A stretch of 64,000 nt of DNA from Cephalotus follicularis (taxonomy: Eukaryota > Streptophyta > Magnoliopsida > Oxalidales > Cephalotaceae): assembly GCA_001972305.1 (NCBI GenBank), contig BDDD01002368.1, positions 124,001 to 188,000 on the forward strand, read 5' to 3'. The notes below the pieces were generated by a model. It was not told the DNA's origin, did not search any database, and saw only the letters and a list, made by a program, of their open reading frames with translations. This document shows, in pieces, positions 5,240 to 64,000 of the stretch (its first letter is position 1; the number at the start of each line of letters is the position of its first letter). Position numbers and translations under genes: made by a program.

Positions 5240-7200
5240 AATAAAAATCAGTTCTTATAAAGAGTCTTCACAGATTCTAGTAAAGCCTTGAGGTTGTCTA
5301 AATACTGTACAAGGGAACTTTCTTGCGTTAAAGTCTTGTCAAAATTTAACTTCAGTTGGGTGGCATTTGCTTTGGCCGTCTTTAGTTCTCCTTATTCTCT
5401 AGTGGTCTTCTCCAATAGCACTTGTGCCTTGGTCTCGATCTGTGCTTTCTGATCTTTCACTTCCTCATGCTTCTTTTCAGCTTCTGCAAGCTTAATTTTC
5501 AGCCTTTGAACAAGAGCCTCTGCCTCTTTCTGTTTTCAAATTTTTGAATTGGTGGGAATTATTTTTCATCTCTTTGGTCATGGTCTCTTGCAGCTTGTTA
5601 TTGTGGTAGAATTCGTCCTTTGCCCTTTGAATGACCATGAATAATTCTGTAGGAAGAGTCTTCAAAAAATCAAGACTTTCCAACACTTGAAGACTTTTTA
5701 TCTACGGTCAATCCATAGTCTATGTTGATGCCTTTGATGGCCTCGGTCCAATCAGTTACTTCTAGAATGCGGTCTGGGTCAATCAGCGAGGAAGGGTCTT
5801 CTAGCAGAAGTTGATCCAAGACTTTGAGAATAGTTTCATCATTTAAGAGTGAAGTAGAAGCATTAGAAGTAAAGGCCATTGTAGAAGGAGTTGTTTCTAG
5901 CCAAGCAGGAGTCTGAGTGATGACCCGATCGGAGAATGAGCAGAAGAATGAAACATCTTGCTTGCGGTCTTAGACACAGGCTGTATTTACCTTCATCTGA
6001 ATCACTTTGTGAAGATTCGGAGACTTGTTCAACAACTTCTGGCGCTACGGTCTTAGGAATGGCTGCAAACACAAACAAATATTAGACACAGGCTGCATTT
6101 ACTATCTACAAGGAAGCAGTTTTACTTCGATTACCGTGGCCATGTACTCGAGGGTAGGGAGTCTGCTCATTACAAGAATGCACCCCGCATCGAGCCCTTT
6201 CGCGACTCGACACATGCACAGAAGGGCTTGTATTTGTTCCTTTCTCCATAATTGGAGAACCCTCCAGAAGTACCATTGGTAACAAACTCTTGTTGAAAAA
6301 TTTGTTCTTTCAGATCATGAAGGTTCTTTGTATAAACATGCTAGGATGCAAGGTCCTAGTTCTATAGGATCATCTTCGGCCAAAGCCTTAGCAATTGGGA
6401 GATAGTCTTTGGTCACTTTGGCTAGCAGGAACACAAAAAACAAACTTGCATAGCCAATACAAAGGGAAAGCCGTATATTCTTTTTTATCGATAGGGCCCT
6501 TCAGTTTTCATATGAGTTTTCAAAAACTCGCCATAAGATTTTCTGGATTTGGGGATGTTAAAGTCAGTTCCATCCTTTACAGTCATTAGACTGTTAACCT
6601 CTTGTGACCCGACAACAACTATGTTTAACAAGGCAAATAAGTCAAAGAGAGTTACCGTCATTAGGCCCGCAGGGAAAATGAAAAACATCATGGGTCGAGG
6701 AGCAAAACAAAAGTGCAGCCCAATAAGATTACGATAAAGGCGTATATGCCTGTTCTTTTCCAAAATATCTTCCTACAGGGTTCCATTCTTTGGACCCAAG
6801 CATTAAAATTTTTATCTAAAGTAGGCCATCATGTGGTCAATAAATAGAGTTTTCTTTGGGATTTCAATAGAAGCTTTTCCCCAGAAACTAAAGGAACCCA
6901 TTTTCGCAGAGCGGGTGAAAGAAGATTGACACAAGAAGGACCAAGAACAGGAGAGGGGTAAGATGGATTAGAATGAAAAAATGCCAGATTTACCTCATCA
7001 GTAGGGAGGTCTTTGACAGCGTTAATATGATGATTAGGATGGTTGTACTTGGGGTCTTTCGTTCCTAGAGTTGAGAAGGGAGGTTTCCCTTTGCTGCCAT
7101 GCCAGCCATGGAAGATTAGAGAGAGGAAGCTTCTGGTATTTTCTGGAAATAAAAGAGAGAATGGTAAAACAAAGGATTTAATCATCCTCAACAATTATTA
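5240..7200 (-). mobile_element. Decayed transposon ORF with plant mobile domain and coiled coil
   Basis: Read on the minus strand, 7.19-6.3 kb shows pieces typical of plant-mobile-domain (PMD-like) transposon proteins, such as FCFAPRPMMFF and LMTVKDGTDFNIPKS. A stretch at 5.9-5.25 kb follows, rich in Lys, Glu and Leu with heptad spacing, which reads as a coiled coil. This PMD-then-coiled-coil order resembles the antisense ORFs of the gypsy element at 43-45 kb. It is broken in several places and no terminal repeats were found, so the parent could be gypsy- or MULE-related. It is a fossil. Confidence 0.5.
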
Positions 7201-16793: not shown

Positions 16794-19700
16794 TGGTATC
16801 AGAGCGGTAATTCTTCCTGCAAATCTTTGGTTTTGTTCCCTTTGTTTTGATGGCAACCACAACCACAGCCGATAAAGGTGGTTCACAAGAGGTGAATAGC
16901 CGACTAACTGCCTCCCTCCTCAATAGCCGAAACTACATGCCATGGGCTAGGGCTGTTTCTGTTGCTCTTGGTGGTCGTTCCAAAATCAGACACATCATGG
17001 GCACAGTCACCCCTCCAGCGGCTACAGATGATAAGTTCGAGTATTGGAGATCAAGTGACAACCAAGTGATGACATGGATTTTCAATTCCATGGAACCGGA
17101 AGTCTATGAAATTTTTGCCTACTCCGAAACGGCAAAAGAATTGTGGGATTCGGTTAAAGAACATTATGGGAATCAAAACAATATTTCTAGGGTGTTTGAG
17201 TTGCAACAAGAGGTATGTCAAACCAAACAACTTCCTACGCAATCCTTTAACGAACATCTTGGTCTGATGAAGAAGAGGTGGGATGAATTGAAGCAATATC
17301 GTCCCAAGGCTGCCACAGTTGATGAATATGTAATTCGTGAGGAACAAGACAAGTTGTTCATGCTTCTTGCTAGTGTGAGGCCGGAATATGAGGATGTCAA
17401 GAGACAAATCCTCATGACCACACCCCTGCCATCGTTTACTACGGTATGTAATATTATTCAACGTGAAGAGACACGAAGAAGAGTAATGAATCCAGTGATC
17501 TCATTGGGAGGAGACAGACATGAGAATTCTGCTCATCATACTGCCGCAACAAACCCTAGTAATATCGGATTCTCTTCAACAGGTAATCTTTCGGGTATAA
17601 ATCCTAATTTTCCTATAGTTCCTTCACCGACCAGCAACTTAAGTCGCTCCTCTGGTAGAGGTAAGGGCAGAGGACGTGGGAGCAAATATCACTGTGATCA
17701 CTGCCATAGGGATGGTCATACACAAGACCGATGTTGGATTTTGTATCCACACCTGAAAATTCAAAAAGATAAGCCGATTGGTGCCATGGCTTCTGCATCT
17801 CAGTCTGACGAATCCTCAAAAGATTTTCAGTCTACTCTTGGCAAGCTGGCAATGCAACTACAAGAATATCTAAGCTCCAACTCAAGTAATAAGGCTAACA
17901 ATGCGAGTCACTTTGTTCAAACTGGTAAGTCTTATGCCTTATCTAGTCAGTTATCACAATCATTTATTATTGATTCAGGGGCCACAGATCATATGTGTTA
18001 TGACCCACAATGTTTGTCTAATATTTCTGATACTACTCACATTGCCCCGATTACTATAGCCGATGGAAGTCAAGTTCCGGTCAAGGGACTTGGACAAATT
18101 GAATTTTTGAGAAACCCTCTAAAGCCTTATTTGTTCCTTCATTATCTGCAAACTTATTATCGGTTGCGAAAACCACTAATGATTTGAATTGCAATGTTAT
18201 ATTCTCTCCAAAAAAGGTGGTGTTTCAGGACATAAACACAAGGAGGAAGATTGGTGAAGGAACCTTGCATAATGGACTATATTTGCTGAATACGGTGCAC
18301 AAAGGCCTTAGTGCAACCCAGAATAAAAGGGATGACTCCAAGTTGTGGCATTGGCGTATGGGACATCCGTCTGATAAAATTCTGCATTTTATTAATTCTG
18401 AGTTGTCTATTGATTCAAGTACTTGTGAGACCTATCGGTATTCTAAATTACATAGATTAGCTTTCAATGATAGTTCTCATGTTTCTCGTCAATTGTTTGA
18501 CTTGGTTCACTCTGATGTTTGGGGGCCTGCCCCAATTGACTCAAAAGATGGTTTTCGATGGTTTGTTACTTTTATTGATGATAAATCAAGGTGCATGTGG
18601 TTATATTTATTGAAATCCAAAACTGACGTGGGGCAAATATTTCAGGAGTTTTATCATATGATTAAAACTCAATATAGATTTGGAATTAAGGTTTTGCGTA
18701 CCGATAATGGAACCGAGTATATTAATGGTGTTTTTCAGTCTTTCCTTAAACAAATGGGTATGGTTCACCAACTATCTTGTGTCGGGACACCACAGCAAAA
18801 TGGAATAGCTGAACGTAAAAATCGTCATCTTTTAGAGGTAACCTGATCTCTGTTATTTCATGGAAATTTGCCTTCTAAATATTGGTCGTATGCTGTGCTC
18901 ACAAGTTGTTACTTAATTAATCGCACTCCGAGTAAGATTTTACAATATCAATCTCCATTGGCTATTCTTCTAGGTAGACCAATAAACTTGTCTCACTTAA
19001 GGGTTTTTGGGTGTACTTGTTTTGTCCATATGCAAACAGGAAACAAGCTTGAACCTCGCTCAAAAAAATGTATTTTCTTGGGTTACTCGTCGGTAAAAAA
19101 GGGGTACAAGTGTTACGATGTTGCTACCAAGAAATTATATATTTCAAGGGATGTATACTTTGACGAGAATTCTATATTTTCTCCTCACAGGGATAAAAAT
19201 CAGGGGGAGATACGAGAACAATTTGATTTTTCTTCTCCAAGGCCGACTGTTGATAATAGCCTGGATGATAGTTGTTCCTTGAACAACTTACCTGGACATG
19301 TTACAGACGCACTGCATGAACCTTTACTAGTGCAGCCAACTGACCAGAATTGTGTGCTGGCACAAAGTGGAGAACTCAATGTACCCAATGTGTCATTGCA
19401 ATCTAAACCGCAAACTCAAGATGTTGTGCCCGAAAACTCAGAAAAACAAAATGAACAACTGTCTTCAACAACAGCGGACGGACAGCAATTGAGAAGGTCA
19501 AGTCGCGTACCCAAACCTTCGATTAAATTGAAGGATTTTGTCTCAACTGCTGTTGCTCACCCCATTCAAAGCTATGTATGTTACAATAATATATCTACAG
19601 GTTTCAAGTCATTCCTTGCATCAATTGATAGCCATCATGAACCAGTGAATTATATAGAGGCACAAAAATTACCAGAGTGGCAAACAGCCATGGCAGAGGA

Positions 19701-21185
19701 ATTGGTGGCTCTTGATAAAAATCAGACTTGGGAGATTGTGACATTACCTGAAGGGAAACGAACCGTTGGCTACAGATGGCTTTATAAAATAAAATATCAA
19801 AGTGATGGTACTATTGAACGCTATAAGGCTCGTCTTGTAGCAAAGGGATACACCCAAACATACGGCATAGATTATAATGAGACATTTGCACCAGTGGCCA
19901 AGATGAACACTGTGAGAGTGCTAATGTCTGTAGCCGTGAATCTTGATTGGCCGCTTTTCCAAATGGACGTCAAGAATGCGTTCTTGCATGGAGAACTTGA
20001 AGAGGAAGTGTATATGGACATTCCTCCCGGTCATTCTCTCGAAACTCAACCTGGTAAAGCATGCAGATTAAAAAAGGCGATTTACGGATTGAAACAGTCT
20101 CCAAGAGCATGGTATGGTAAATTAAGTGCAGCTTTGATGTTTTTTGGCTTCAAAAAAAGTAAGTCCGATTATTCATTGTATGTTAAAAAATGTTCTGGAA
20201 GTATTGTTGTTGTGTTGATTTATGTGGATGACATAGTCATCACAGGAAACAACTTGGTGGAGATAGAAAAATTGAAGCGACATCTCAACCAAAAATTTGA
20301 TATCAAAGATTTGGGGCAACTGAGATACTTCCTAGGAATTGAGGTGGCAACTTCAAGCAAGGGACTATTCATTTCTCAAAGGAAGTATGTGATGGATTTA
20401 CTGAAGGAAACTAGAAAGTTGGCAGCTAAACCAGCTGATACACCTATGGATTATAACAGTAAGTTTGAAGGTGATACTACTCCTCTTTCTGATCCGAGAC
20501 AATTTCAAAGATTGGTTGGAAAATTGATTTATCTTACAATAACTAGACCGGATATATCTTACACTGTAAGTTACATCAGTCAGTTCTTACATGCCCCTAC
20601 TCTTGGTCATATGGATTTAGTTGACTGAGTTCTCAGGTACCTGAAGTCTTGTCCAGGAAAAGGAATTTGGATGAAGAAAAATGATCATACAGAAATCATT
20701 GGTTATGCAGATGCTGACTGGGCAGGGAATCCATTTGATAGAAGATCAACTTCAGGATTTTGTACCTTTGTAGGAGGCAATCTTGTCACGTGGAAGAGTA
20801 AGAAACAAAGTGTGGTTGCTCGGTCCAGTGCAGAGGCAGAATATAGGGCCATGGCTTCAGCCACTAGTGAGCTTATTTGGCTTCACCACCTTCTTTATGA
20901 TCTGACATTGAGAAGGCCTGTTACACCTATCAAGCTGCATTGTGATAATCAGGCTGCTATTCACATTGCATCAAACCCGGTTTTCCATGAGAGAACCAAA
21001 CACATAGAAGTGGATTGCCACTTTGTTCGTGAGAAGGTTCAAAGAAAAATAATTATGACTCCCTATATTCAAAGTGAAGAACAACTAGCTGATGTTTTTA
21101 CCAAAGCGTTGCCTAAAAATACCTTTCAGAACATTCTTGCCAAGTTGGCCTTGATTGATATCTTCACATCAACTTGGAGGGGGAG

Positions 21186-21506
21186 TGTTGGAGATAATGT
21201 CAGCCAAATTAGTGGAGATAAATATGGAAAGGTTGTTGACCCAATTGTAACCACTAATCTAGCTAAAACAAAAGGAAACAAATTAGATTATTCCCTTGAT
21301 TTTAGGCTCGAAATATTGGTCAATTCAATGTATCAATTGCTATTTAAAGGGAATGGAACCTCCCTAACTAAGTGACAAGTTAGGGGGAGAAACCTTGATC
21401 GTGGATGTAAGCCTTCAAGGCCGAACCACGTTATTTTTTTGTTCTCCTTCTCTATCTCTCTTATATTTCTCTCTAGAAATTGAATTGTTGATATACCGTT
21501 TAAACA
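21186..21506 (+). repeat. 3' LTR of the young Copia element
   Basis: 321 bp. Preceded by a polypurine tract and followed by the GATGA target duplication. Confidence 0.95.
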
Positions 21507-39128: not shown

Positions 39129-40943
39129 CAAGACGAGTTCAAACTCTTGAATTTCTTTTTGACTCGAGCAATAGTTTTTTTTAGTTCGTTAAAAACTCAG
39201 TATAAACTTGAACTAAAATATAAACGATTCGAGCCTTAATGGGCAAAAACTCGATTCAACTCAACTCCTTTGCATCGTTACACTGGAATCAATAAATAAA
39301 ACAATGAACCTATTTGAAAATGGATCCATAATGGAGATATTAATACAAATTTAACCGATTAAATTTCTCAATATCATATTTAAAAAATGTTTATCTCAAA
39401 AATAATAATTAAAATGATTATTATCAAAATTAAGTATAATGATAATATAAATAGATTTTCTTTTTCTTTTTTTCTGGAGAACACATGTGAAGCCAAAACG
39501 GTAAAGATGAGCATAATGTAACGAGATAAATAAATTAAAAATAAATATATAATTGCCGTGTATGGCATGGCAGTGGCGAAGAACACGTAGTCCTCTTTTA
39601 GCAAATGAAAAAAGGCATTTTGCATGGGAGGATTTTGGAATTATTATACGTAACATAACTCACGAAGGAAAAGAGTGTTTCATTATTACACCGACTCCAC
39701 AAGTTTTAGATGATGAGATTTCTTTCGTATTTGGACTGTTTCTGCTTTCTATGTAGATAAGGGTGACGATGATGGTCAAATAATAAAGGCCAAGGCTCTG
39801 AGAAAGAGAGAGAGAAAGAGGGCAGTGGCCTACTAATCTGGGTTTTGTATCTCATTGAAATTTGTGGCAAATTTAATTTGGATTAGGCAAGTTGGACCTT
39901 TATTGGAGATGGAGATGCCAGTTTAGTGTCTCGATAGGGTAAGGTATTTAGCATTCCGAGGAAGAAGTACCTTTCATTTCACATATCTTTGGAGATTTGT
40001 ATCCCTTTCACATTTCTCCATTTTCTTCACGTGCATTTTTTTTATGATTTTAATTATTTCCTTTTTCTTTTATCCCCTACTGTACATTCTAATATTCTAT
40101 CATTCCTTTTTTGTTTTTTTTATATGGATCCTCCAATTTGAAGGCTACCCTACACGTCTTCTATTCGTCATGGATTCAATTTCTCTTCTATCCATTCAAA
40201 TTTAGGGTATTATCCAATGTACAAAAACGGATTCAGCAGGGGAATGAGCCTATATATGACTCAATTGTGGGTTGGAACAGTCATACATGAAGACCTCGCT
40301 AAGACACAAACATTAAATCGAATTTAATGATATCAAACTTTAATATCGGGCAAGACATATTGCAACCTCAACAATCAAATTGTGGTGTGTCCTCCAATTG
40401 TGCATAGATATTATATGATAATAGAAACAAAATTAATGGACAAGTATATTATTGTCTTAAAGTGTTGTTACGAACTCGCAACAAAAGTCTCATTTTTAAT
40501 ATTAGTATAGAAACTTTTAATATTATTATATAGAAAAAAGGGTTAATGAACAAAGAAATTATCGTCTTAAAATTTTATTGTGAATTCGCAACAAAACTAT
40601 AATTTTTAATAATAGTATAGATAAAAAAATAAAATATATCAAAATACATTGCACTACAATTGTATATAAATAGATGTATAGATATTATGTAGATTATAGA
40701 TTATAGATATACTATATAAAAAGTGATTTGATTTTTTTTAAAAAGTGTTTGAAATCACAACAAAAGTTTTCTTTTTATTATATATAGTATAAGTATATAT
40801 AAAAAGGGTTAATAAACAAAGAAATTATTGTCTTGAAATTTTATTGTAAATTCACAAAAAAACTCTCCTTTTTAATGATAGTAGAGATATATAAAATAGA
40901 ATATATCAATACTTCTATCTATGAAAAGAGTGAGTTTTGTTGT
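38724..40943. other. AT-rich spacer with local repeats
   Basis: Contains a (TA)n run (39073-39126). At 40435-40920 there are three diverged copies of a unit with TTAATNAACAAAGAAATTAT and a GTGAATTCGCAACAAAA-like part; traces reappear at 46560-46690 beyond the inserted gypsy element. A purine-rich GAGAGAAAGAG tract lies at 39800. No gene was recognised. Confidence 0.45.
39073..39126. repeat. (TA)n microsatellite
   Basis: Uninterrupted TA run of about 53 bp, seen directly. Confidence 0.95.
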
Positions 40944-41847
40944 TGATAGAGGAAAAATATGTTAATAAAAATAAGGACACGTGTCCACTGCAGACTTGAC
41001 CAGTTGTCCATCAGGGGTTTGCAAACTTGACAGACAGGTCGTGCCGAGGAGCACGCACATGATAAAGAATGTCCTTCTCGGACCAAGAGCCGAGGATCAT
41101 TACTTTTCGAAGACAACACTCTAAGACCACAAGTCTGAGGACACTCCTCGGACTCAAAGGCAAAAGACCATATTCACGGTGCGAGGGCCGAGGACACCCT
41201 CGGCCCAATGTATCTATCAGGTGAAGAACAGGAGATACGGTCTCCTGTATACAGAAGCTGAGGACCTCCTCCTCGAACGAACTCACACTTGTTCCATCCT
41301 TGGAACCACAGCAGAGACCAACTTTCCTCTGCAGCCATATCACAATCAATATTACCCTAAAATGCAGGACCTCAACCTTATCTACGGGATAAGGAGATTG
41401 CCTTCAGCAGATTTGTTGGGATTTATGCTTATCCAAATAAAGAGATAGAGTCCCAATCAACTACAAACAAAAGGAAAGCAGCTACATTACAGGCGGAGAT
41501 AAGGGAATGTCCGAGATTCTCGGCATTTCCTAGGGGATCACGATCACATCCGATTCACACGCTCTATCAGTTACAAAAACTTCACTATAAATACAAGTTC
41601 AACATACTGAACAAAGGTCAGCAATTTTTACATTCAAGAGAGTATAATATTTCATCTGCACTTGACTAACTTGAGCGTCGGAGTGTCCCCGGGAGAACAA
41701 CCTCCTGGGCCTTCACCATTGTTGTTACCTTGTGCAGGTGTCCGAGATCAACTTTTTTCCTCAAGGCATCAGTGACAAAGCGTTTCTCTTAACAAATCAA
41801 AGTCCTCCACGTAGGATACTGTTGAGAGAAGGATTTCTGTATCAACA
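40944..41847 (+). repeat. 5' LTR of the gypsy LARD-like element
   Basis: 904 bp, TG...CA, rich in CCGAGGA/TCCTCGG motifs around 41.09-41.29 kb. CACTATAAATAC at about 41583 may be its TATA box. Confidence 0.95.
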
Positions 41848-44800
41848 GTTGGCGCCGTCTGTGGGAAACGCTACGAGAAGTCATCAGCAATCATGCCTCC
41901 AAGGAAGAACACCCAAGTTGGAGCCACTCGCAGCCGACAGGAAGAGGTTGCAGCTCCTCCACCAGAGGCCGTGCAAATAGCGGCACAAGATCCAGCTCCC
42001 GTTACAGGGGAGCAACTCAACCAATTCCTCCAAGGATTGGAGCGTGTCATAGATCGGTTGGTCACAACTTTAGCCAACCAACAACAGCAAGCGGGGCCCG
42101 CTCAGCCGGTGGTCCGAGGAGTATCTGGCCCCCAGAGGCCAGAGGTGGAGATAAGGCACCCACGTGGTGCCAGGCGAAACCCGCCGAGGGGAGATGAACT
42201 TCCCCTTGGGCTGTCAGGGGACAATGATCCCCTGGGAAGGAGGCCTGAGATCAATGCATCTCATAGAGCAGAGTCCTCGACTGCAAGGGATCATCCCAAC
42301 GATCCCAGGAGAGGACACCCTCAGCACCAGCCTATGGATATGGATCCTCGGCAGCAAGAGAGGGGAGCAGAGGAGGCACAAGTGCGTTCTAATACACCAC
42401 GCAGAGCTGGAACTGCCCGAGGAAGTAGGGTAAATCCCCCAGCCTCATTGGCTGGAGGATCACATGTCTCCAGCAGAGTGAGGAACATTGAAGAGGTGGA
42501 GCAGGCAGTGAATAGAAGGCTTGCTGACCTAGAAAAGAGGTTTGGAAGAGCGGAACGGCATGGGGGGCACTTGTCCGAGGTGCAGAACATCAATGCACAC
42601 CCCTTCACTGCCGAGATCATAGCAGAGCCAGTCCCTAGTGGGTTCAGAAACCCCAATCTTGATAAGTACGATGGGTCCACGGATCCCATCCAGCATGTGC
42701 GCACTTACATCCAGGCCATGTGGATGCATCAGGCCTCGGATGCCATGCTTTGCCGAGGATTCCCAGTGACTTTAACTGGAGCTGCCCAATCGTGGTATTT
42801 TACCTTGGCCAAGAATTCAGTGAAGAGTTTCGATCAGTTTACGGAGCTGTTTGTAACGAAGTTCCTCAACAGTACAACACGGAGGAAAAATTCTACCCAC
42901 CTCATCAACGTAGTGCAGGGTAAGGATGAGACGTTGAGAGACTATCTCACCAGGTTTAACCAAGAATCTCTTACAGTGAAGGACCTGGAGCCTCATCGAA
43001 CTCCTCGGAGCCCTTGAACTCCTCCACCGAGGACCTCAGCAACTCCTTGAACTCTTCCGAATTCTTGAAGTCGGCCACGGCCTGATGTTGGACCCTCCTC
43101 AGTTGCTCCTCATCTTTCCTCTGCTGCCGATCCAGCTTGGCCACCAGGGCGTAATTTTTCTCCTCGGCCAGCTTCAGCTTGGCCTCGAGCCTCCTATTCT
43201 CGGACCTCTCCCCCTCCAGGTCCTCAACTGCTTGCTTCTTCTCCTCGGCCAAGGACTCCTGAGCCTTGAGAACCTCATTCAGTTGGGCTTGGGCCGAGTG
43301 AGCCGTTTCTTCTAAGGTGGCCATGCTCGACCTCAGTTCTCGGTCCCTGGCCACAACCGCACAGAAGTTGTCCACAAGCAGCTGGGTGTCGTTCAAAGAC
43401 TGACAGAGAAATAAGAAGTGTTAGACATTGTAAAGAACTAAAGTGCAAGAAAAAGCAAGGTAACTAAGGACAAGATCACTTACCCTCAGTTGCCTTTTCA
43501 CACAAACGGTGGCCAAGTCTTCATTGGTCCATCTCTGCCTCACCTCCAACTCCTGGGGCAAGAAGACCAGCCGGGTGAGTCTCTGAGGGACTCCAGCACC
43601 GTTCAAGTTCAAGTTCTCAACCTCCATCCCATCAAACCCATCCAGCAGTTGGTCTACCGTCAGAGATGGGGGAAGGATTATAGGATCCTGGGAACTAGCT
43701 CCGAGGGCAGCCACGTCCTCAACTTCCCGGACCTTCTCAGAGCCTTCCACGGCCTTCCCCTTTCTACTCCTCTTGGACAGAGGAGCATGCTCAGTTTAGG
43801 GGGTCTTGTCGGCCGGCCTCTTGCTGATCTCCTTTCTCTTCTCGGTCACAGCAACCGGAACCATGGCAGAGGGAGGAGGAGGAGGGGTCTTGGTCGGCGC
43901 CCTGGTCTTCTCGACCGTGAGAGTTTTGTCCTTGGGCTGAGCCCCAGTAGAAGTAGAGGCCTTCTTCTTATCGGTGGACCTGATGATTGCAGAAAGATCT
44001 CGGCGAGGACCCATTGCTGAAAAAAGACAAGAAAGTCAGAGTCAGAGATCAGAGATTAGAAAATGTAAGAGTTGGTAAGAACAGAATTAATTAAAGAGAC
44101 AGAGAAGACAAAGATGTTATACAAGTTTGCTCAGACACTAGGGGCGGAGGACTATCCTGCTCTTCCTCGCCCTCTGATTCTTCCTCCTCGGATCCGTCCG
44201 AGGAGGACTCATGCCCTAGGACCACACTAAGCCCTGCTTGGACCAGACGATCCTCGGTTACGGTGGAGTTAACGTCCTCTGGCTCAAGAGCCAGGAGCTT
44301 ATTAAGTCCAATTTTCTCGGCCGAGGACAGGCGAGACTTTCGGTTCAGAGACGTGACGTCCAAGGACGTGCACCAAGGAGAGGGAATGAATCCCTCAAAA
44401 TCCTTTATCAAGAAATATTTCCTTCTCCAGTTTTTTATTGATTGGGTGGGGTTGAGAAGAAGTTTTTTAACCCCAGAACGGGACTTGAAAAAATATCCAT
44501 TTGTTTTGGGGGTGGCCGAGATGACATGAAACTCCTTGAAGAGATTCACAGTGGCTACCACCTCGGACTCTATGCATCTAACTAAGAAACCTATCATGAA
44601 GCCCCAAGATTGGGGTTGGAGAAGAGAAGGATGAAGACTAAAGCTAAGGAGGACCGAGATGGCAAAAGAGGGAACAGGGACCCTCAGACCATAGGAAAGA
44701 GCAGTTTCGAAGACCACAAAGAGGCCTTCTCGGCTCTCAGTAACTACCCGAGGATCCTTAGGAATACTGAAGGTCAACCCACGAGGGAAATTATACTTTC

Positions 44801-45644
44801 TGGTAAGCCTTTTGACCTCGGCTTGACTAAGTTTGCTTAAACCAAAGGCACAATCCTCAGGCAGAGGATTGGCCTCTGCAGTGGGTGCAACAGGGTCACC
44901 CACCACAGCCCCTAGGCTACCTTCCACATCACTTGGCCTCTCAGCGAGGGGAATCACCATAGCCAAAGGTGCAATGGACAGGGGGGAAGGAGAAGAAGAA
45001 GAAGACCCAGAAGATAGTTCTTGATTAGCCATTAAAAGAAGAAGAAATCACCAAAAAGAAGAAAACAATCTGGGAAAACAAGAAAGTTGGTAGAAACTTA
45101 CCAAAAATTTTTGATTCGAAGAGTTGAAGAAGAAAGGGATTGAAGACACTGCAGACTCAAAAAGTACTCAAGAATCTGTGAATTCTTAGGTTTGAAGAAG
45201 TAAAAGTTTTGCTAAGTGAAGAACAAAAGCTTTTATAGGGCCTTTCCTCGGATCCTGGCCCTCCATCATACATATGATCCAACGGTGGGAAGACAGACCA
45301 TCAAATCAAGCGCGGGAAACGAAAAGGCAGAGGCGGGAATTGCTCTGTGCATGCCACGTGTCAAGCGTACTCAATACGCAACTTTAATGATAAACATAAC
45401 GGTTCAATGCTCGAGGTCACTTAATGACAGAGAAGGCAGACCAAAGGTCAAGCGTTAGTTCTTGGCTCAAGCAGACTATGTCATATGTCAGAGGAGCAAC
45501 GAAGGCAATGCTCTCGTCCTCAGCCCATTTGTATAAGCAAGAGCTACCAAGAAGTATTGCAGAGGAGTCTTGCCTGGGCCATGGCTCTCAACTCTGGTCC
45601 TCCTCCTCTGACCAAGCTCAGAGAACAAGGACCAGGGGGGCATA

Positions 45645-46548
45645 TGATAGAGGAAAAATATGTTAATAAAAACAAAAACACGTGTCCACTGCAGACTTGA
45701 CCAGTTGTCCATCAGGGGTTTGCAAGCTTGACAGACAGGTCGTGCCGAGGAGCACGCACATGATAAAGAATGTCCTTCTCGGACCAAGAGCCGAGGATCA
45801 TTACTTTTCGAAGACAACACTCTAAGACCACAAGTCCGAGGACACTCCTCGGACTCAAAGGCAAAAGACCATATTCACGGTGCGAGGGCCGAGGACACCC
45901 TCGGCCCAAAGTATCTATCAGGTGAAGAACAAGAGATACGGTCTCCTGTATACAGAAGCTGAGGACCTCCTCCTCGAACGAACTCACACTTGTTCCATCC
46001 TCGGAACCACAGCAGAGACCAACTTTCCTCTGCAGCCATATCACAATCAATATTACCCTAAAATGCAGGACCTCAACCTTATCTACGGGATAAGGAGATT
46101 GTCTTCAGCAGATTTGTTGGGATTTATGCTTATCCAAATAAAGAGATAGAGTCCCAATCAACTACAAACAAAAGGAAAGTAGCAACATTACAGGCGGAGA
46201 TAAGGGAATGTCCGAGATTCTCGGCATTTCCTAGGGGATCACGATCACATCCGATTCACACGCTCTATCAGTTACAAAAACTTCACTATAAATACAAGTT
46301 CAACATACTGAACAAAGGTCAGCAATTTTTACATTCATGAGAGTATAATATTTCATCTGCACTTGACTAACTTGAGCGTTGGAGTGTCCCCGGGAGAACA
46401 ACCTCCTGGGCCTTCACCATTGTTGTTACCTTGTGCAGGTGTCCGAGATCAACTTTCTTCCTCAAGGCATCAGTGACAAAGCGTTTCTCTTAACAAATCA
46501 AAGTCCTCCACGTAGGATACTGTTGAGAGAAGGATTTCTATATCAACA
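45645..46548 (+). repeat. 3' LTR of the gypsy LARD-like element
   Basis: 904 bp, same length as the 5' LTR. About 15 differences counted by eye. Confidence 0.95.
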
Positions 46549-47033
46549 GTTGTGATACTATCCAATAAAAGAAAGAGTTTGTTGTGAATTCACAACAAAT
46601 TTTTATGACACTATTATCTTTGCTCATTAACCAATTGTTCATACTAATATTAAGTAAGAGTTTTGTTTTGAATTCACAATTGTATCTTAAAACAAAATAA
46701 TTATGGGACATACCCCATCAAGAGGCTTGGGTTATAAAAGGTCTTAGCTCAGACCAATTTTCGATTCTCTCATCTCTTTCCGGTTTGGTTTAATATTTGT
46801 GTTCTTATAGGATCCTTAATGAGCTAGTTGATCAAGCCCATCTCAAGTCCTTTCTTTTTTTGAAAAAAATTGCAAGTGCTTTGCACTTATTAACTCAACT
46901 TATACTATATAAAAAATGATGTACAAAGGTACTTCGGTCAAAAAATATGTATTTGAAACCAACAAAACTCTTCTTATTATATCCTATAGATACCAAGGGA
47001 CACATATAGGCTTTTAGACCCAACAACAGACAC

Positions 47034-56193: not shown

Positions 56194-57066
56194 TGTTGAT
56201 GTAAAAATTCTTCCCTCAACAGTACTCCACGTGTAAGGGTTTGATTTGTTTAGGGAAACGCTGTTTCAATACTCCGAGATAAAGGTAGAAGATGACTGTA
56301 AGTGTTTTTCCTGCACAGAAGAGCAAACGCGTTGAATGTCCAGGAGGTTGTTCTCCCGGGGACACTCCGAAGCTCGAGTTAGGCCTTTGCATGGAGAAAA
56401 CTAGGTTTTTTTAGAGTAAAAATGGCTGACCTGAGACATGTCTTTGATTCTTGTATTTATAGTGCTGGTTTGTAATTGTTTGAGCGTGAAATGCGAAGGT
56501 GATAGCTATCCCCTAAGGAAATGTCGAGGATCTCGGGATTTCCTTTATCTCCACCTGATTTGTCGCTACTTTCCTTGTAGGTAGTTTTATATCTTATCTT
56601 CCATATTAGGAAGATGTGAATCCCTGGAAAGTAGACTGATTTTATAGCCTTGTCCTGCCGAGGATGAGGAGAATTAGGTTCTCTTGTTATTTACCCACTT
56701 CAAGGTCTTCAACTTCAAAGGCTTTCTCTAGGGCTGTCGCCCGAAGCATTAGGTCCTCTGCCTAGCTGTCGAGGAAGAGATCTTCTACAGTGCAGTTGAG
56801 GAGGAGTCTCCTGGGTTAGGTCCTCTGTACTGATGTTGGAAGGGAGATCCTCGGCACTTAGGCCGCGGATTTCCTCGGCACTTATGTTGAGGAGTGTGGA
56901 TTCTACATCACCAGTAAGGAGGGTCTCCTCGGACTTGATTCCGAGGAGGATGTCTTCATCTGTTTTTCCTGCCAGAGCTTGATAAGCTTTAAAGCCCCTT
57001 GACACCTGGCTACGTCGGCAGAGGACATGTGTCATTCTTGGTATAAACTAATTTTTCCCCATATCA
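56194..57066 (-). repeat. Solo LTR, gypsy LARD-like family relative (873 bp)
   Basis: On the minus strand it starts TGATATGGGG and ends CATCAACA. The perfect 5-bp duplication GTAAT flanks it (56189-56193, 57067-57071). It shares CTCCCGGGGACACTCCGA and the GTGTAAGGG and CCGAGGA motifs with the LTRs at 41 and 46 kb, but it is clearly diverged. No internal region remains. Confidence 0.88.
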
Positions 57067-57738: not shown

Positions 57739-58412
57739 TGTTCATACAAAAATCCTTACTCAACAGTACCTCACGTGTAAGGGCTTTATTTGTTGAAGAA
57801 AACACTGTAATATGCCTGAGAAGAAAGTTTAGAGGTTGATAATCCCTGCACAAATAGAGCAAAGACGTCGAAGGTCCAGGAAGTTGTTCTCCCCGGGGCA
57901 CTCCGATGCTCAAGTTAAGCAATGCACACAGAATATAGGGTTCCTTAGTATGCAAAATGAATGACCTTTGTTTTGACTGTGAAACTGGTATTTATAATGC
58001 TAGTTTGTAACTGTTTGAGCATGAATTTCAGAGGTGACTGCTATGCCCCTAAGGAAATGCCGAGGATCTCGGGATTTCCCTTATTCTCCACCTGATTTTG
58101 TGCCAGTACATTATTGTGTCTTATCTTACCATATTTGAAGAGATAAACCCCTAGAATGTAGACTGATTTCATGGCCTGATCCTATAACGGGGGAGGAGGT
58201 CCTATGCAATGCTGCCGAGGAGGTGGTCCTCTGTAATAGTTTCGAAGAGGTGGTCCTCTGCAAAGATGCCGATGACCTCGACTGTTGCCTTGGTGGAAAC
58301 AACGATTTTCCTCTGATCAATATCCTTGTATGCTTCAATTCACTTATGCACGTGGTAATGTTTACAGAGTACATGTGTCGCCGTGAATATAGACAGATTT
58401 TTTCTCCCGTCA
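57739..58412 (-). repeat. Second solo LTR of the related gypsy type (674 bp)
   Basis: On the minus strand it starts TGACGGGAG and ends GTATGAACA. The flanking 5-mers ATTTT and ACTTT match at 4 of 5. It shares GTTCTCCCCGGGGCACTCCG and the CCGAGGATCTCGGGATTTCC block with the neighbouring LTR. Confidence 0.75.
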
Positions 58413-60021
58413 ACTTTTAACTTCCAAAATATTTTATGAGTTTTTAAACGAAAAAAAAAAAAACAAAATGCCACTTCCTTCTTCTCTTCCTCTCATCAAG
58501 CTCTCGGCTAACACTCCACTTCCCACCAAATTAGCAGTTTCCTAAGCATCCAGGCCACCAAGTGAGGCGGCCATCTTCCTCCTTCATTCCCAAACTCAAG
58601 GTTGTATCATTAACCAGACAAGGTAACGGGTTCTCCTCCAATTTTAGCTTTAGTTGACTCATGACACCTCCATTAACCAAGACAGCCATTCTCCACCCTC
58701 CTCCACCACTAATTGATGATAATAGAAGGTTGGAGCAGCACCAAGGCAGCAATTCTCCTTTTCCCCTGGTATGGCAACTCTTTCTCCCACTCCTTTTTCT
58801 TTCTAGCACTCCTCTTTCTCTATAACTCTAACACCCACGAAATTTGTTCTCCTTTTTCCTTGCCACCAACCTCTCCACCCCTGGATCATCAAGGCAGCAA
58901 CATCGATAACCCCAAGGCAGCCCCTGTCCCCTTCGCGACAGCCGCATTCCACGGCATCATCGAGGGTAATTCTCCCTTCCTAGCCGATTGTGATTAGCTT
59001 AGTTAGTGTAAGTTTAAATTCGTCAATCTCATTTTCGATTATCGTTAGGAAGAGAAATTTGAGTTTTTCTTTAACTCTACGAAGTACATTTGAGTGAATC
59101 TTTAGACCAGAATTCAACAAGTATAAATTTTGAGCCCGTTGCCCTTTTAGGACTTAAATCGAGCAAATTAGCTTAACTTTGAAGATTTCTGTCAGATGAA
59201 TTAGCGAACTTAGATATGGAACGCACACTTGGTGATTATTGAATTAAGTATTCAAATTATGTTAAAAATAAATTTATTATTATTTTAAGGTTTTAAATGA
59301 CTCAAGTTAAGTTAAGAAATGAGTGAAGTTTAGGAGATTTTAAAGTGATTTTATAAACTTAAGTTTATATTTTTAGCTGTATAAATGACTTATTCAAGTC
59401 TTTTTAAGTTTGTTTAAAGCTATTATGAAAGTTTGAAGTGAATTAATTGAGTTTTTATCAATATTTAACGTTATTTCCAATGTGAACAATAATGAGATTG
59501 CATCATTATGGATGGATGGTTTGGGTATGTATCTTCAGGAATCCAAAAATGTGTCCGTAAAATACAAGTATTTGGTTCAAAAACTAATATCCGTTAAACG
59601 TGGGTATTTTTGGACTTGACTTATGGGACCAGTGAGTAAAAAGACCCTACCCGTGGACAGTGGCAAACACAACATGTGACCCATGAGAATAGTTTCCCCA
59701 TGGAACTTTAAAAAAAAAACTATAGTACATATCCCTTTTAATATATATTTAGAAATTTTCATCTTTTAAATTTTGTCAATGCCCCTACTTAATGTTAGTT
59801 AATTATAAATTCAATGTGGATGGAACGACTATGACTGTCTGGTCACATAAACTAAAAAAGCCATATTCGATATCTTTGCGTTGAGAAAATTGTCTAATAT
59901 ATTTAAAATATGAAGATTCGTGGAGAATAATTGTAAAAACTGTTTATCTCTTTTGAAAAGAGGTTTGCTTTTGTAAATAAACAAATCATAACTAAACACG
60001 ACTTTATAGGTGTTTTAGAAT
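58413..60021. other. Spacer with a CT-rich, GC-richer block
   Basis: 58470-58990 is pyrimidine-rich and contains an open frame (58713-58997) with no recognised domain. It resembles the leader segments of large plant LTRs. The rest is AT-rich and featureless. Confidence 0.4.
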
Positions 60022-60492
60022 TGTTGATGCAGAAATCAACTTCACAACAGTCCTGCACGTGTGAATGTTTGATTTGTTAAGAAAAGCGTAGGATGCTCCG
60101 AAGAAAGTACTGGATCTAGGTTCTCTGGTCTTCCCTGCACATAAAAAGGCAAACTATCAAAAGTTCAGGAGGTTTTACTCCCGGGGACACTCCAATGCTT
60201 AAGTCAGTAGTTGACAGAGAAGATAATGAGCGTATGGTCAATTGACTGACCTCCCCATAGTCTTTCTTGGGGGTATTTATAGTCTTACCTGGTCATAACT
60301 GTCTCTGAATTGTTAACATCATGGAGGAGGTTATTGGTCCCTTGGAAACGGCTGGAATTCTCCGCCATTTCCTTGTCTTTGAATGAAAGAGTTATCTCCC
60401 CATTATCACCACAATTTAAGATGATTTGCCCATGTGTTGGCTCCATGTGACACTTGTCAATGCCTTATTTATATAAAAAAATTTTCATATCA
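60022..60492 (-). repeat. 3' LTR of the window-edge gypsy element (471 bp)
   Basis: On the minus strand it starts TGATATGAAA and ends CATCAACA. Contains CTCCCGGGGACACTCCAATG, shared with the other LTRs of this type. Confidence 0.8.
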
Positions 60493-61116
60493 TATGCCCC
60501 TCTGGTCTTTCTTCTTTGGACTTTGCAAAGGAGGAGGAGCATTCATGAGGTGGTCTTGCTTGAGCAGGTATTTGATACTCAATTGTGCCAATTTTGGCTT
60601 ACAGGCTTCTCTCGCTTTTGGGGAGGAAGTCTTCATGGAGTCTGTGCTATTTTTTCGTCGGGGCTTTTATTCTTGCTGTAACTGGGTGGCTGGTCTTCAT
60701 CATGAGGTTTCTCTGACTCCTATCATATATTGTGAGTCAGCGGGAGACTTCGACTTTCTTCCTGAAGGGATAGAGGCCGAGGAGGAGAAAGTTTGTCTTG
60801 CCCTAAAGGGGAAAGAGACTCAGAGGGAAGACTCCATGATTGACTTGATCTCTGACCCCGCTCCAGAGCCTCAGCTTCTTTTCTCTGCTCCTGATGCCTC
60901 TTCCTTTGAGCATGCTTCAGAAACCGTTGCTGCTCCTCAGCCTGAGGATGTTCAGGACCTTGGTTCCGTTCTTGTACACAATGCCCCTTCAAGAGATAAC
61001 ATTGCTTAACTTATATAATTTGCATTGTACCTTTGTATTCTTGTAATTCTTACTCTGACAATGAATAAACCATAGTTTTTTGTATCATTTAGTCTGGTGT
61101 CTCCAAACTTTGTCAA

Positions 61117-61400
61117 TTTGAGCTTTTTAGTCCCCTTGGGGATACTTGTATCAAAGCGCTCAACCAACATGACTTGATTTCACGATTTCTTATGTTTTCA
61201 CCGATTAAATCTCTTTTTAATTTAGTCTATTGAGTTCTTATGGATTCGTAGACATCTTTCATACTGTCTGATTTTTTTCAAACCAGGTCACCTGAGCTTT
61301 TTAGCCCCCATGGGAGGACTTGTATCAAAGCGCTAGCCAACGAGACTTGATCTTTACGAGTTCTTATGTGTTCGCAGATGAAGATATGTTTTAGATCTGG
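61117..61400. repeat. Two-copy diverged repeat of about 190 bp
   Basis: GAGCTTTTTAG(T/C)CCCC...GG, then ACTTGTATCAAAGCGCT and GACTTGAT, and then a TTCTTATG...TTCGCAGA-like part occur twice in order, beginning near 61117 and 61299. Confidence 0.65.
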
Positions 61401-61499
61401 TCTGAAAAGTTCCTATGGGTTTGCAGATCAGCATTTGTTTTGTAGCTAAGACTCCGTTTTAGGACTCTTTTGGCATTTTGGGCTTAAAGAGTTGGGTTC

Positions 61500-62330
61500 C
61501 TGTATTAAGGACCTGCTCTGAGATATTTAACTACATTTTGGCTGGAAGTTTTTGAACAAGCTTGTATTAAAGCTTTTAAAAGAGCCTGCTTCAGACTTGG
61601 AGAGCTGTGGTCCTGTATTAAGGGCCTGCTCTGATTGCTCCATTGGGAGTATTTGAATAAGCTTGTATTAAAGCTTGGAGAGCTACAGTCCTGTATCAAG
61701 GGCTTGCTCTGACTGCTCACTTGGGAATCTTGAATAAGCTTGTACTAAAACTTTAGTCTGCTTGAGACTGAGAGAGCTATGATCTTGTATCTAGGACATG
61801 CTCTGACTGCTCCCTTAGGAGTCTTGAATAAGCTTGTATTAAAGCTTTAGTCTGCTTGAGACTAGGAGAGCTATGGTTCTGTATCAAGAACCTACTCTGA
61901 TTGCTCCCTTGGGAGCCTTTAAATAAGCTTGTATTAAAGCTTGGAGAGCTATGGTCTTGTATCAAAGACCTGCTCTGATTGCTCCCTTGAGAGTCTTGAA
62001 TAAGCTTGTATTAAAGTTTGGAGAGCTATGATTCTGTATCAAGGTCCTGCTCTGATTGCTCCTTTGGGAGTCTTTGAATAAGCTTGTATTAAAGCTTGGA
62101 GAGTTATGGACCTGTATCAAGGGTCTGCTCTGATTGCTCGCTTGGGAGTCTTGAATAAGTTTGTATTAAAGCTTGGTTCTGCATCAAGGGTCCGCTCTGA
62201 TTGCTCACTTGTGAGTATTTTATTGTTAGAACTTCTGAAGGCTATTCAGATGTTTAAGGACGTGAACATTGAACCTCTTGCTCTGACTGCTCCATTGGGA
62301 GTCTTTTATTATAGGAACTGTTGAAGGCTG
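61500..62330 (-). repeat. Minisatellite-like tandem array in the gypsy element
   Basis: About eight or nine diverged units with the shared core AATAAGCTTGTATTAAAGCT, GGAGAGCTATGGTCCTGTAT, CAAGGGCCTGCTCTGATTGC and TCCCTTGGGAGTCT. The basic unit is about 78 bp. Some units carry an extra TTAGTCTGCTTGAGACT segment and are about 95-105 bp. In the element's sense (minus) direction several units stay open and read as repeats of SNQSRPLIQDHSSPS. Confidence 0.85.
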
Positions 62331-64000
62331 TTCAGAGTTTTAAGGATGTGTACATTGAACCTCATGTCCCTTGCAAACTTGGAATTGATCCTTGTGTTAA
62401 AGAAACATCATCTTTATTGAATGGACTGAGCATTTATACATTTTTTAAGTGCTCAGAATTCCAAACCCTAGGTATCTCTCTTCTTCTGCCTAATCGGGGG
62501 CCGCGCTTGATTTATACTAAGTTTGTGAACAACGTCTGCCTTGTATAGGCCTTTCTGGCCCGACTGTGATCGCCTCCAGACTTGATCCCTCCAGAAATGG
62601 TGCGTATCACACATCTAGGTTGTTGCTCCTCTCCTTACTATGGAGCTTCTTCTCTGCGCTCCCATCTTCCTTGGGGAGCATCACTATCCATATACTTCCT
62701 CATATGACCTTTGCGGATTAGGTCCTCTATCTGATTTTTTTAACTGTCTGCACTCCTCCGTATTATGGCCATGATCACGGTGGTATCGACAGTACTTGCT
62801 TGAGTCCCTCTTGTCTGCTGGGGATCTCAATGGAGCTGGCCACTAGATTGAGACTTTTTCTTTCTCATCTGAAAGGATTATGGTCCGCGTCTCCAAGAGA
62901 GGGACGAAAGTATTGTAATTGGGGATTGATGATCCCCTTTTTGGTTAGTCCTCCCTCTTGGAGAGTTTGTGCCCCAGGTCACCTTCCGTTAGCTCTAGCC
63001 CCCATTTCCTCTTCTCCATTCTAGCCGCCAGACCCTTTTCTGCATTTACATACTTTTCAGCTCTTCTAAGGAGGTCTGCTATATCTAGGGCAGACTTCTT
63101 CATCAGGGAGATAGTGAAAGCTGACTTGTCTCTCGATCCACTGTTTAAGGCTGCCAGAGCAAATGAAGGTTTCAAGTCTTTTATCACCAGAGATTCCTTG
63201 TTGAATCGAGTCAGGTAATCTCTACGGGATTCATTTTTCCTTTGCACCACATTGATCAAATGATTAGAATTCTTTCTCTGGGTGGTGCTGTTAAGGAATT
63301 TTGTGACGAACATCTCAATGAATTGCTCGAAGTTCATCATTGACTTCTAGGGCAACGTGGAGTACCACGTCTGAGCTGCATCCGTTAAGGTCGCCGGAAG
63401 TCCTCGGCAGAGGACTGCGTATGAAGCTTTGTGCACTAGCATGATCTGAGTGTAAAACCTCACATGTTGTATAGGGTCAGAGGACCCGTCATACTCTCTG
63501 AACGTCAGGAACCTGAACCTTCTCGGCATAGGCTCCCTCAGTATCTCTGGAGCGAAGGGAGTGCAGTTTATGTTCCGCACCTCTGACAGGTATCCCTTTG
63601 TCTGCTCGGTTTCTCAGAGACTTTTCTCCATTTATACAAACTTCCTATTCATGGTCTGCTCGAGATCTTCTTGGTCCCTAGACTTGCTAGAGACCTGCAA
63701 TGTCCTTGTGGTTGGTCTGACAAAGTAGTCTGACCTGCTCCTTGGCCGTGATTCAGTCCTACGAGATGCGTAGGAACATGCACGGGGCTCCTCTTCGTCT
63801 ACGTAGTAGTCTGAGTAGTCTTCCTCCGTTGGATGTTGCTCTGGAAGGTCCTGCGCGGGGTTATAATTATAATCAATTGCACAGGAGGACTTTGCTCTCA
63901 TAAATATATCAATCTCTGACCGCTTTGGAGGGCATCTGGCCCCCTTTTAGGGGTTTCGCCTGGCCTCTTCGTGAACTAGAGGCTGTGGTTTTTCTTGAGC

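Follow-up and report, generated by a model that had tools for sequence, protein, structure and literature searches.

The 64,000-nucleotide stretch of Cephalotus follicularis DNA analyzed here (assembly GCA_001972305.1, contig BDDD01002368.1, positions 124,001 to 188,000; hereafter the window) contains at 40944-46548 a long terminal repeat (LTR) retrotransposon with gag on one strand, a Transposase_28 (TRP28, PF04195) coding region on the other, and no pol. This element is very probably non-autonomous, having arisen by internal deletion from a member of a multi-copy Retand-like Ty3/gypsy family; its relatives carry a spliced gene model under selection on the antisense strand. Because the splice sites of this predicted gene are kept, its dN/dS is low and a second family has both of its intron positions, the evidence supports the view that the family maintains the gene, the window version being truncated and interrupted by a premature stop. 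The "gag plus antisense, no pol" appearance of the window copy would thus be an accident of the deletion.

Structure of the element

The features of the element are as follows.

40939-40943: target-site duplication GTTGT, left copy
40944-41847, plus strand: 5' LTR
41850-41867, plus strand: sequence resembling a primer binding site (PBS), putative
41893-42992, plus strand: gag, truncated, with PF03732 at residues 290-358
42990-42992: deletion junction with 3-bp microhomology; the sequence lost at this point comprises pol, the last part of gag and the antisense gene's 3' end
42993-43399, minus strand: predicted exon 3, Lys/Glu-rich part, 3' end lost
43400-43483, minus strand: predicted intron 2, GT...AG
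43484-44016, minus strand: predicted exon 2, with one premature stop in the window copy, at codon 378 when numbered after the C5597 gene model
44017-44122, minus strand: predicted intron 1, GT...AG
44123-45032, minus strand: predicted exon 1, with Transposase_28 (PF04195) about 100 residues from the start
45232-45237, minus strand: TATAAA box upstream of the antisense gene
45634-45640, plus strand: polypurine tract core adjoining the 3' LTR
45645-46548, plus strand: 3' LTR
46549-46553: target-site duplication GTTGT, right copy

A first-pass annotation of the window had placed the element at exactly these coordinates, and its description of the termini is largely confirmed. The intact-looking LTR ends are two 904-bp repeats that differ by 15 substitutions in 904 aligned sites (Kimura two-parameter distance, K2P, 0.0168), the perfect target duplication is the GTTGT that flanks the element on both sides, and the polypurine tract lies directly 5' of the 3' LTR at 45645. 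The primer site can be retained only as putative: a PBS-like sequence, TGGCGCCGTCTGTGGGAA, is found just 3' of the 5' LTR. Gag matches Retrotrans_gag in Pfam (PF03732, E 4.8e-14), and the antisense PF04195-like domain that had been recognized on the minus strand is a Pfam match to Transposase_28 with an E value of 3e-8. The reported lack of pol also agrees with the tblastn searches, in which the reverse transcriptase (RT)-RNase H (RH)-additional RNase H (aRH) and integrase (INT) pieces of a relative found no match in the element.

The same annotation called the element structurally whole, which it is not. Gag ends at the 42990-42992 junction, past which no gag sequence follows and the frame runs into a stop at 43017; the antisense gene is missing its 3' end, and its exon 2 contains one in-frame stop.

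The deletion junction and pol in related copies

The LTR was searched against the 1.577-Gb assembly, and the best 40 of 5274 candidates were scored. LTR pairs among the scored matches are spaced at 4.7 (the window copy), 5.6, 9.0, 10.6-11.0 and 14.4-15.1 kb. In the relatives, window-like sequence is continuous through gag to 42992 and then resumes at 42990, or at 43049-43050 in four relatives that have a small gap at the junction. The insert between the junction points measures 6.26-6.36 kb in copies C2366, C292, C1306 and C1042, and 4.3 kb in C226. The overlap at the junction of the window copy is GCC, a microhomology of 3 bp.

Full-length RT-RH-aRH and integrase pieces are present in six of the eight relatives (C2366, C292, C1306, C1042, C597 and C5597). 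In C226 tblastn finds an RT piece of 72 residues only, and in C1059, which contains an N gap, it finds no pol piece. The Pfam families recognized in C5597 are RVT_1, RT_RNaseH, RVT_3 and rve. C5597 (L044 1727-5797) also has a second gag piece, 93.6% identical to 42868-42992, in the open reading frame (ORF) 3' of the integrase domain, and carries RT-RH-INT twice; it has therefore been rearranged or duplicated in part.

A search with the junction itself, in which the best 40 of 6582 candidates were scored, gave one match that spans the junction, the window copy, together with 36 that match the gag side only and three that match the other side only; copies too diverged to score lie outside this count. 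Since the window copy alone spans the junction among the 40 scored, the deletion would be private to it, or at least rare.

A spliced gene model on the antisense strand

The antisense region was sampled in the window copy and at 24 other places, all taken from the 40 scored LTR matches (8 LTR pairs and 16 single LTRs). From these 25 regions C290a and C268 were dropped for want of a match, and C1421 and C92 because their matches were poor or misplaced, which leaves 21 copies. Aligned in the antisense direction, the relatives have a TATA box, an ATG, and three open blocks separated by two short GT-AG introns, in phases 1 and 0; once these are removed, the frames connect. C5597 has an uninterrupted frame in each of the three exons, which together encode 763 residues followed by a stop codon and AATAAA. 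The predicted protein has an N-terminal TRP28 domain, a Lys/Glu-rich part that by eye is a coiled coil, and a conserved C-terminal part. PF04195 is found on the antisense strand in the window copy, C226 and C5597, and in the long relatives the gene lies between pol and the 3' LTR.

The signals expected of such a gene are well kept. TATAAA is present in 19 of the 20 copies with data and the ATG in 20 of 21; donor 1 is kept in 19/19, acceptor 1 in 18/18, donor 2 in 17/17 and acceptor 2 in 17/18, and the stop codon in all 13 copies with data. In the exons 13 of 18 insertions and deletions have a length that is a multiple of three; the corresponding counts are 1 of 6 for the introns, 10 of 28 for the upstream region and 6 of 21 for the 3' untranslated region. 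The gene of C226 has one frameshift; that of the window copy has the exon 2 stop and has lost the C-terminal part with the deletion. The annotation had described a set of antisense ORFs. The ORFs exist, and as predicted from these alignments they are the three exons of one gene, not a set.

Searches beyond the genome added little. A PDB sequence search gave two matches at E 0.41, which are not significant, and a pattern search of IMG/VR matched 42 stretches, none of which was confirmed.

Selection on the antisense frame

The median pairwise dN/dS of the antisense frame is 0.26 (21 copies; range 0.17-1.35), although the 210 pairs behind it are not independent, the copies being related, which lessens the weight of this figure. 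By parts, the ratio is 0.24 in exon 1, 0.12 in residues 101-200 around TRP28, 0.26 in exon 2 and 0.30 in exon 3. Divergence at the three codon positions is 0.076, 0.067 and 0.160. Of the remaining five frames of this DNA, four have dN/dS of 0.93-2.17 and 33-441 stops per exon set.

The fifth frame is the wobble-aligned mirror on the gag strand. Its ratio is low as well, 0.29-0.38, as would be expected if the antisense frame were a by-product of constraint on the gag/pol strand and not a gene. Counted over the three exons in turn, this mirror frame contains 106, 34 and 131 stops and the antisense frame 8, 4 and 8, and on these counts the mirror frame was rejected as the real gene. The splice sites, TATA box, stop codon and frame-preserving exon joins all fit the antisense strand, as does the Pfam match. 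A mirror-frame effect is thus extremely unlikely to explain the observations.

In gag, dN/dS is 0.15 (8 copies), and in antisense exon 1 it is 0.21 for the 7 of these 8 copies with data; purifying selection on the predicted antisense protein is not much weaker than that on gag. Changes shared by at least two copies have a ratio of 0.28 versus 0.40 for private changes (17 copies, C1306, C290b, C11 and C5227 being left out of the 21; Fisher p 0.013, for counts that are not independent because the copies are related). Selection on lineages that still replicate, followed by decay of the individual copies, would give such a lower ratio among shared changes.

The suggestion of the first-pass annotation that the antisense cassette is maintained by the family is thus borne out by the contrast between a median of 0.26 in register and 0.93-2.17 off register. 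It had named two outcomes that would speak against maintenance, a dN/dS near 1 and the absence of other copies with the antisense ORF; neither was found among the 21 copies.

The conserved part might act mainly as an antisense RNA, through double-stranded RNA (dsRNA) or self-silencing, with the protein being incidental. PMC7264820 discusses antisense promoters in LTR elements as well as models that involve dsRNA. The ratio of 0.12 around TRP28 and the frame-preserving exon joins indicate selection on the protein, and a mainly RNA-based role is quite unlikely. An RNA role and a protein role could coexist.

A second element and its family

A second, related element spans window positions 60019-64000 and continues into L061 1-1644, on the minus strand. 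Its features are as follows.

60019-60492, minus strand: LTR; its partner lies outside the window (L061 1169-1644, 87% alike)
60603-61009, plus strand: C-terminal remnant of exon 3 of the antisense gene; TRP28 exons absent
62530-63964, minus strand: gag and the start of pol, broken; the rest of pol deleted near 62530

The LTR is about 475 bp long, and tandem arrays occupy 61595-62363. The gag proteins of the two elements are 48% identical over 279 positions. An acidic antisense ORF at 60617-60952 matches residues 616-728 of the protein of the first element's relatives (42.6% over 115 aligned positions, E 1.8e-19), which is the very part that the 41-46 kb element has lost. No TRP28 was found in the 60-64 kb element by tblastn. 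The annotation saw the same plan recurring here; the two elements are indeed related, but the second holds the opposite end of the same antisense gene.

Among six second-family relatives, the TRP28 part is found in two, L065 (45.8% identity) and L068 (54.1%), in the 3.5-3.7 kb of sequence sampled. Both intron positions, read by eye, are common to L065, L068 and the first family.

These relatives bear on the origin of the antisense cassette, which might be a recently captured host gene or a nested DNA transposon. The introns and the separate promoter are host-gene-like, and the Pfam name Transposase_28 points to a transposon. Two families whose antisense proteins are 46-54% identical have the cassette at one position, with matching introns, and the survey of Vicient 2025 (PMC11963269), with 122 Retand clusters, reports TRP28 ORFs on the antisense strand in 97% of Retand clusters. 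A recent origin is quite unlikely, while an ancient capture is possible.

The junction at about 60603, where the TRP28 exons are deleted, is spanned by 7 of 40 scored matches (best 40 of 1088, window included), and the pol-deletion junction near 62530 by 17 of 40 (best 40 of 4772, window included). The pol-less form of the second family was therefore copied after it arose. Among its 16 other pol-less copies, two have a listed LTR on the antisense-gene side. In C3768 the distance from this LTR to the start of the junction query is 2.2 kb, compared with 1.8 kb in the window copy; the TRP28 exons would need about 2.5 kb more, and there seems to be no room for them. In C2022 the nearest listed LTR on that side is 9.95 kb away, which is compatible with the presence or the absence of the TRP28 exons. 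If the pattern seen in C3768 holds, neither pol nor the antisense gene is needed in cis.

It was proposed in the annotation that gag plus an antisense ORF, without pol, is a plan kept in its own right; the pol-less form would then be a maintained non-autonomous family that uses the cassette itself. The well-preserved LTRs, target duplication and polypurine tract of the window copy are compatible with this proposal, and the second family shows that a pol-less form can spread. The junction of the 41-46 kb element is, however, found in 1 of 40 scored matches, and its antisense gene is truncated and contains a premature stop; the spread pol-less subfamily is represented in the window by a member without TRP28 exons, and C3768 seems too short for them. 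The 60-64 kb element holds the complementary piece of the gene, not a repeat of the same plan. A maintained pol-less family is very unlikely, and as the maintained unit of the 40944-46548 element the plan was rejected on a junction private among the 40 scored matches and on the loss of TRP28 in the second element.

Other remnants in the window

The annotation had also regarded a plant mobile domain (PMD)/coiled-coil piece at 5.2-7.2 kb as a relative. The minus strand at 5500-6800 contains broken frames with sub-threshold PMD matches (PF10536, E 0.0021 and 1.4e-4; 6 of the 22 listed ORFs of the 5.2-7.2 kb region were scanned against Pfam), and the antisense protein has no tblastn match to the 5-7 kb piece at E 1e-3. 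The piece was accordingly discarded as a sequence relative. It may derive from an Ogre extra ORF or from a host gene. According to PMC6317226, 57% of Ogre elements have PMD and 23% of Retand elements have Transposase_28, and the two domains therefore mark sister lineages; this pattern is context for the 5-7 kb piece and not evidence of kinship.

LTR-like fragments on the minus strand at 56194-56586 and 57739-58094 are 71-72% similar to the 3' half of the LTR of the 41-46 kb element, and are probably the remains of another related family. What by eye resembles a copia-type element occupies 16811-21375 on the plus strand, its putative gag, integrase and RT lying in four long frames of the ORF list.

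A possible history and function of the antisense gene

By combining these observations it is possible to propose how the window copy arose and how the antisense gene might work. A single microhomology-type deletion would account for the loss of pol, of the last part of gag and of the antisense gene's 3' end. Because of this deletion and the premature stop, the window copy probably makes neither a whole gag nor a whole antisense protein. In intact relatives the gene would be transcribed from its own TATA promoter towards pol, and its transcript would be spliced. The packaged genomic RNA, being of the opposite strand, does not carry the splice signals of the antisense gene. Given what is established about splicing and retrotransposition, the introns would for that reason be retained through each round of copying.

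The antisense protein might be a trans-acting, probably nuclear, accessory factor of the element. Since derivative elements may lose the gene in cis, its product would act in trans, in the manner of a retroviral accessory regulator. On balance, it is somewhat favored that the antisense ORFs of Retand as a lineage belong to a single ancient gene that is spliced, has a TATA promoter and three exons at fixed positions, and encodes a trans-acting protein composed of TRP28, coiled-coil and conserved C-terminal parts.

Several observations weigh against the explanation of the window copy and its family given at the outset. In 15 of the 21 copies the antisense gene has a premature stop or lacks a part, a tally that includes losses due to a contig end, an N gap or the end of the fetched sequence and that leaves frameshifts outside the count. 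AATAAA stands at the homologous place in only 2 of 13 copies. The introns have diverged by 0.146 and 0.093, compared with 0.160 at third codon positions, and are therefore not evolving freely. L065, one of the two second-family copies, lacks the AG of acceptor 2. The single C1306 frame scanned against Pfam matched no family, and an AlphaFold2 prediction from a single sequence, residues 60-260 of window exon 1, gave a pLDDT of 36 and no usable TRP28 fold. Transcription and splicing of the antisense gene are predicted from the sequence. The Retand-like label, too, is based on aRH, antisense TRP28, and region and LTR lengths.

The spliced-gene description has practical consequences. Antisense ORFs are widespread in Retand, and reading them as one spliced gene yields a full-length protein to express and localize. 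It also predicts a promoter and introns that stranded RNA data could reveal, and offers a reason for the persistence of introns inside a retrotransposon.

Comparison with known systems

Retand is a lineage of Ty3/gypsy elements, non-chromovirus, OTA, Tat (PMC11963269). In C5597 (L044) RVT_3, the aRH, follows RT_RNaseH, and INT is in the next ORF, a feature common to Retand and Ogre; the order RT-RH-aRH and then INT is seen in six of the eight relatives, and none of it in the pol-less window copy. The distance from the end of the INT ORF to the LTR in C5597, about 4.4 kb, is within the 2.9-6.6 kb given for the POL-3'LTR region in the 2025 survey (PMC11963269). The LTR lengths, 904 bp and about 475 bp, are within the Retand range of 315-1194 bp. 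Antisense TRP28/PF04195 in the window copy, C226 and C5597 has the Retand position, between pol and the 3' LTR.

The elements thus resemble those of the survey (PMC11963269) in the antisense orientation, position and PF04195 domain of the extra coding region, in LTR size, and, in the second element, in tandem arrays within the POL-3'LTR region. The surveyed antisense ORFs are predicted to bind DNA, and a regulatory role has been proposed for them (Vicient 2025, PMC11963269). ORFs of at least 600 bp were treated singly there; in the present analysis such ORFs become the exons of a single gene model. The window copy also differs from the surveyed elements in having no pol; the survey was seeded on RT, and pol-less copies therefore could not appear in it.

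Antisense transcription from a separate promoter has been described for Grande (Vicient and Casacuberta 2020, PMC7264820), where a look at spliced antisense transcripts was called for. The word "intron" does not occur in the main texts of PMC11963269 and PMC7264820. As described in PMC7264820, gene23 of maize Grande resembles the gene model presented here: both lie antisense in the 3' part of the internal region, and both have a promoter of their own, a predicted one in the present case. The product of gene23 is a nuclear protein, as that of the present gene probably is.

Like TR-GAG (PMC8704663), the window copy is an LTR element in which gag is the only sense coding capacity. Unlike TR-GAG, its gag is truncated, it has the remnant of an antisense gene in addition, and its junction was found in a single copy; with that junction in 1 of the 40 scored matches (best 40 of 6582), the copy does not behave as a family mobilized in non-autonomous form. 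Ogre, the sister lineage (PMC6317226), shares the aRH between RH and INT and the presence of extra ORFs, but its extra ORF has PMD where Transposase_28 is found here. The antisense feature itself has already been published; its gene architecture and its conservation across two families may be new.

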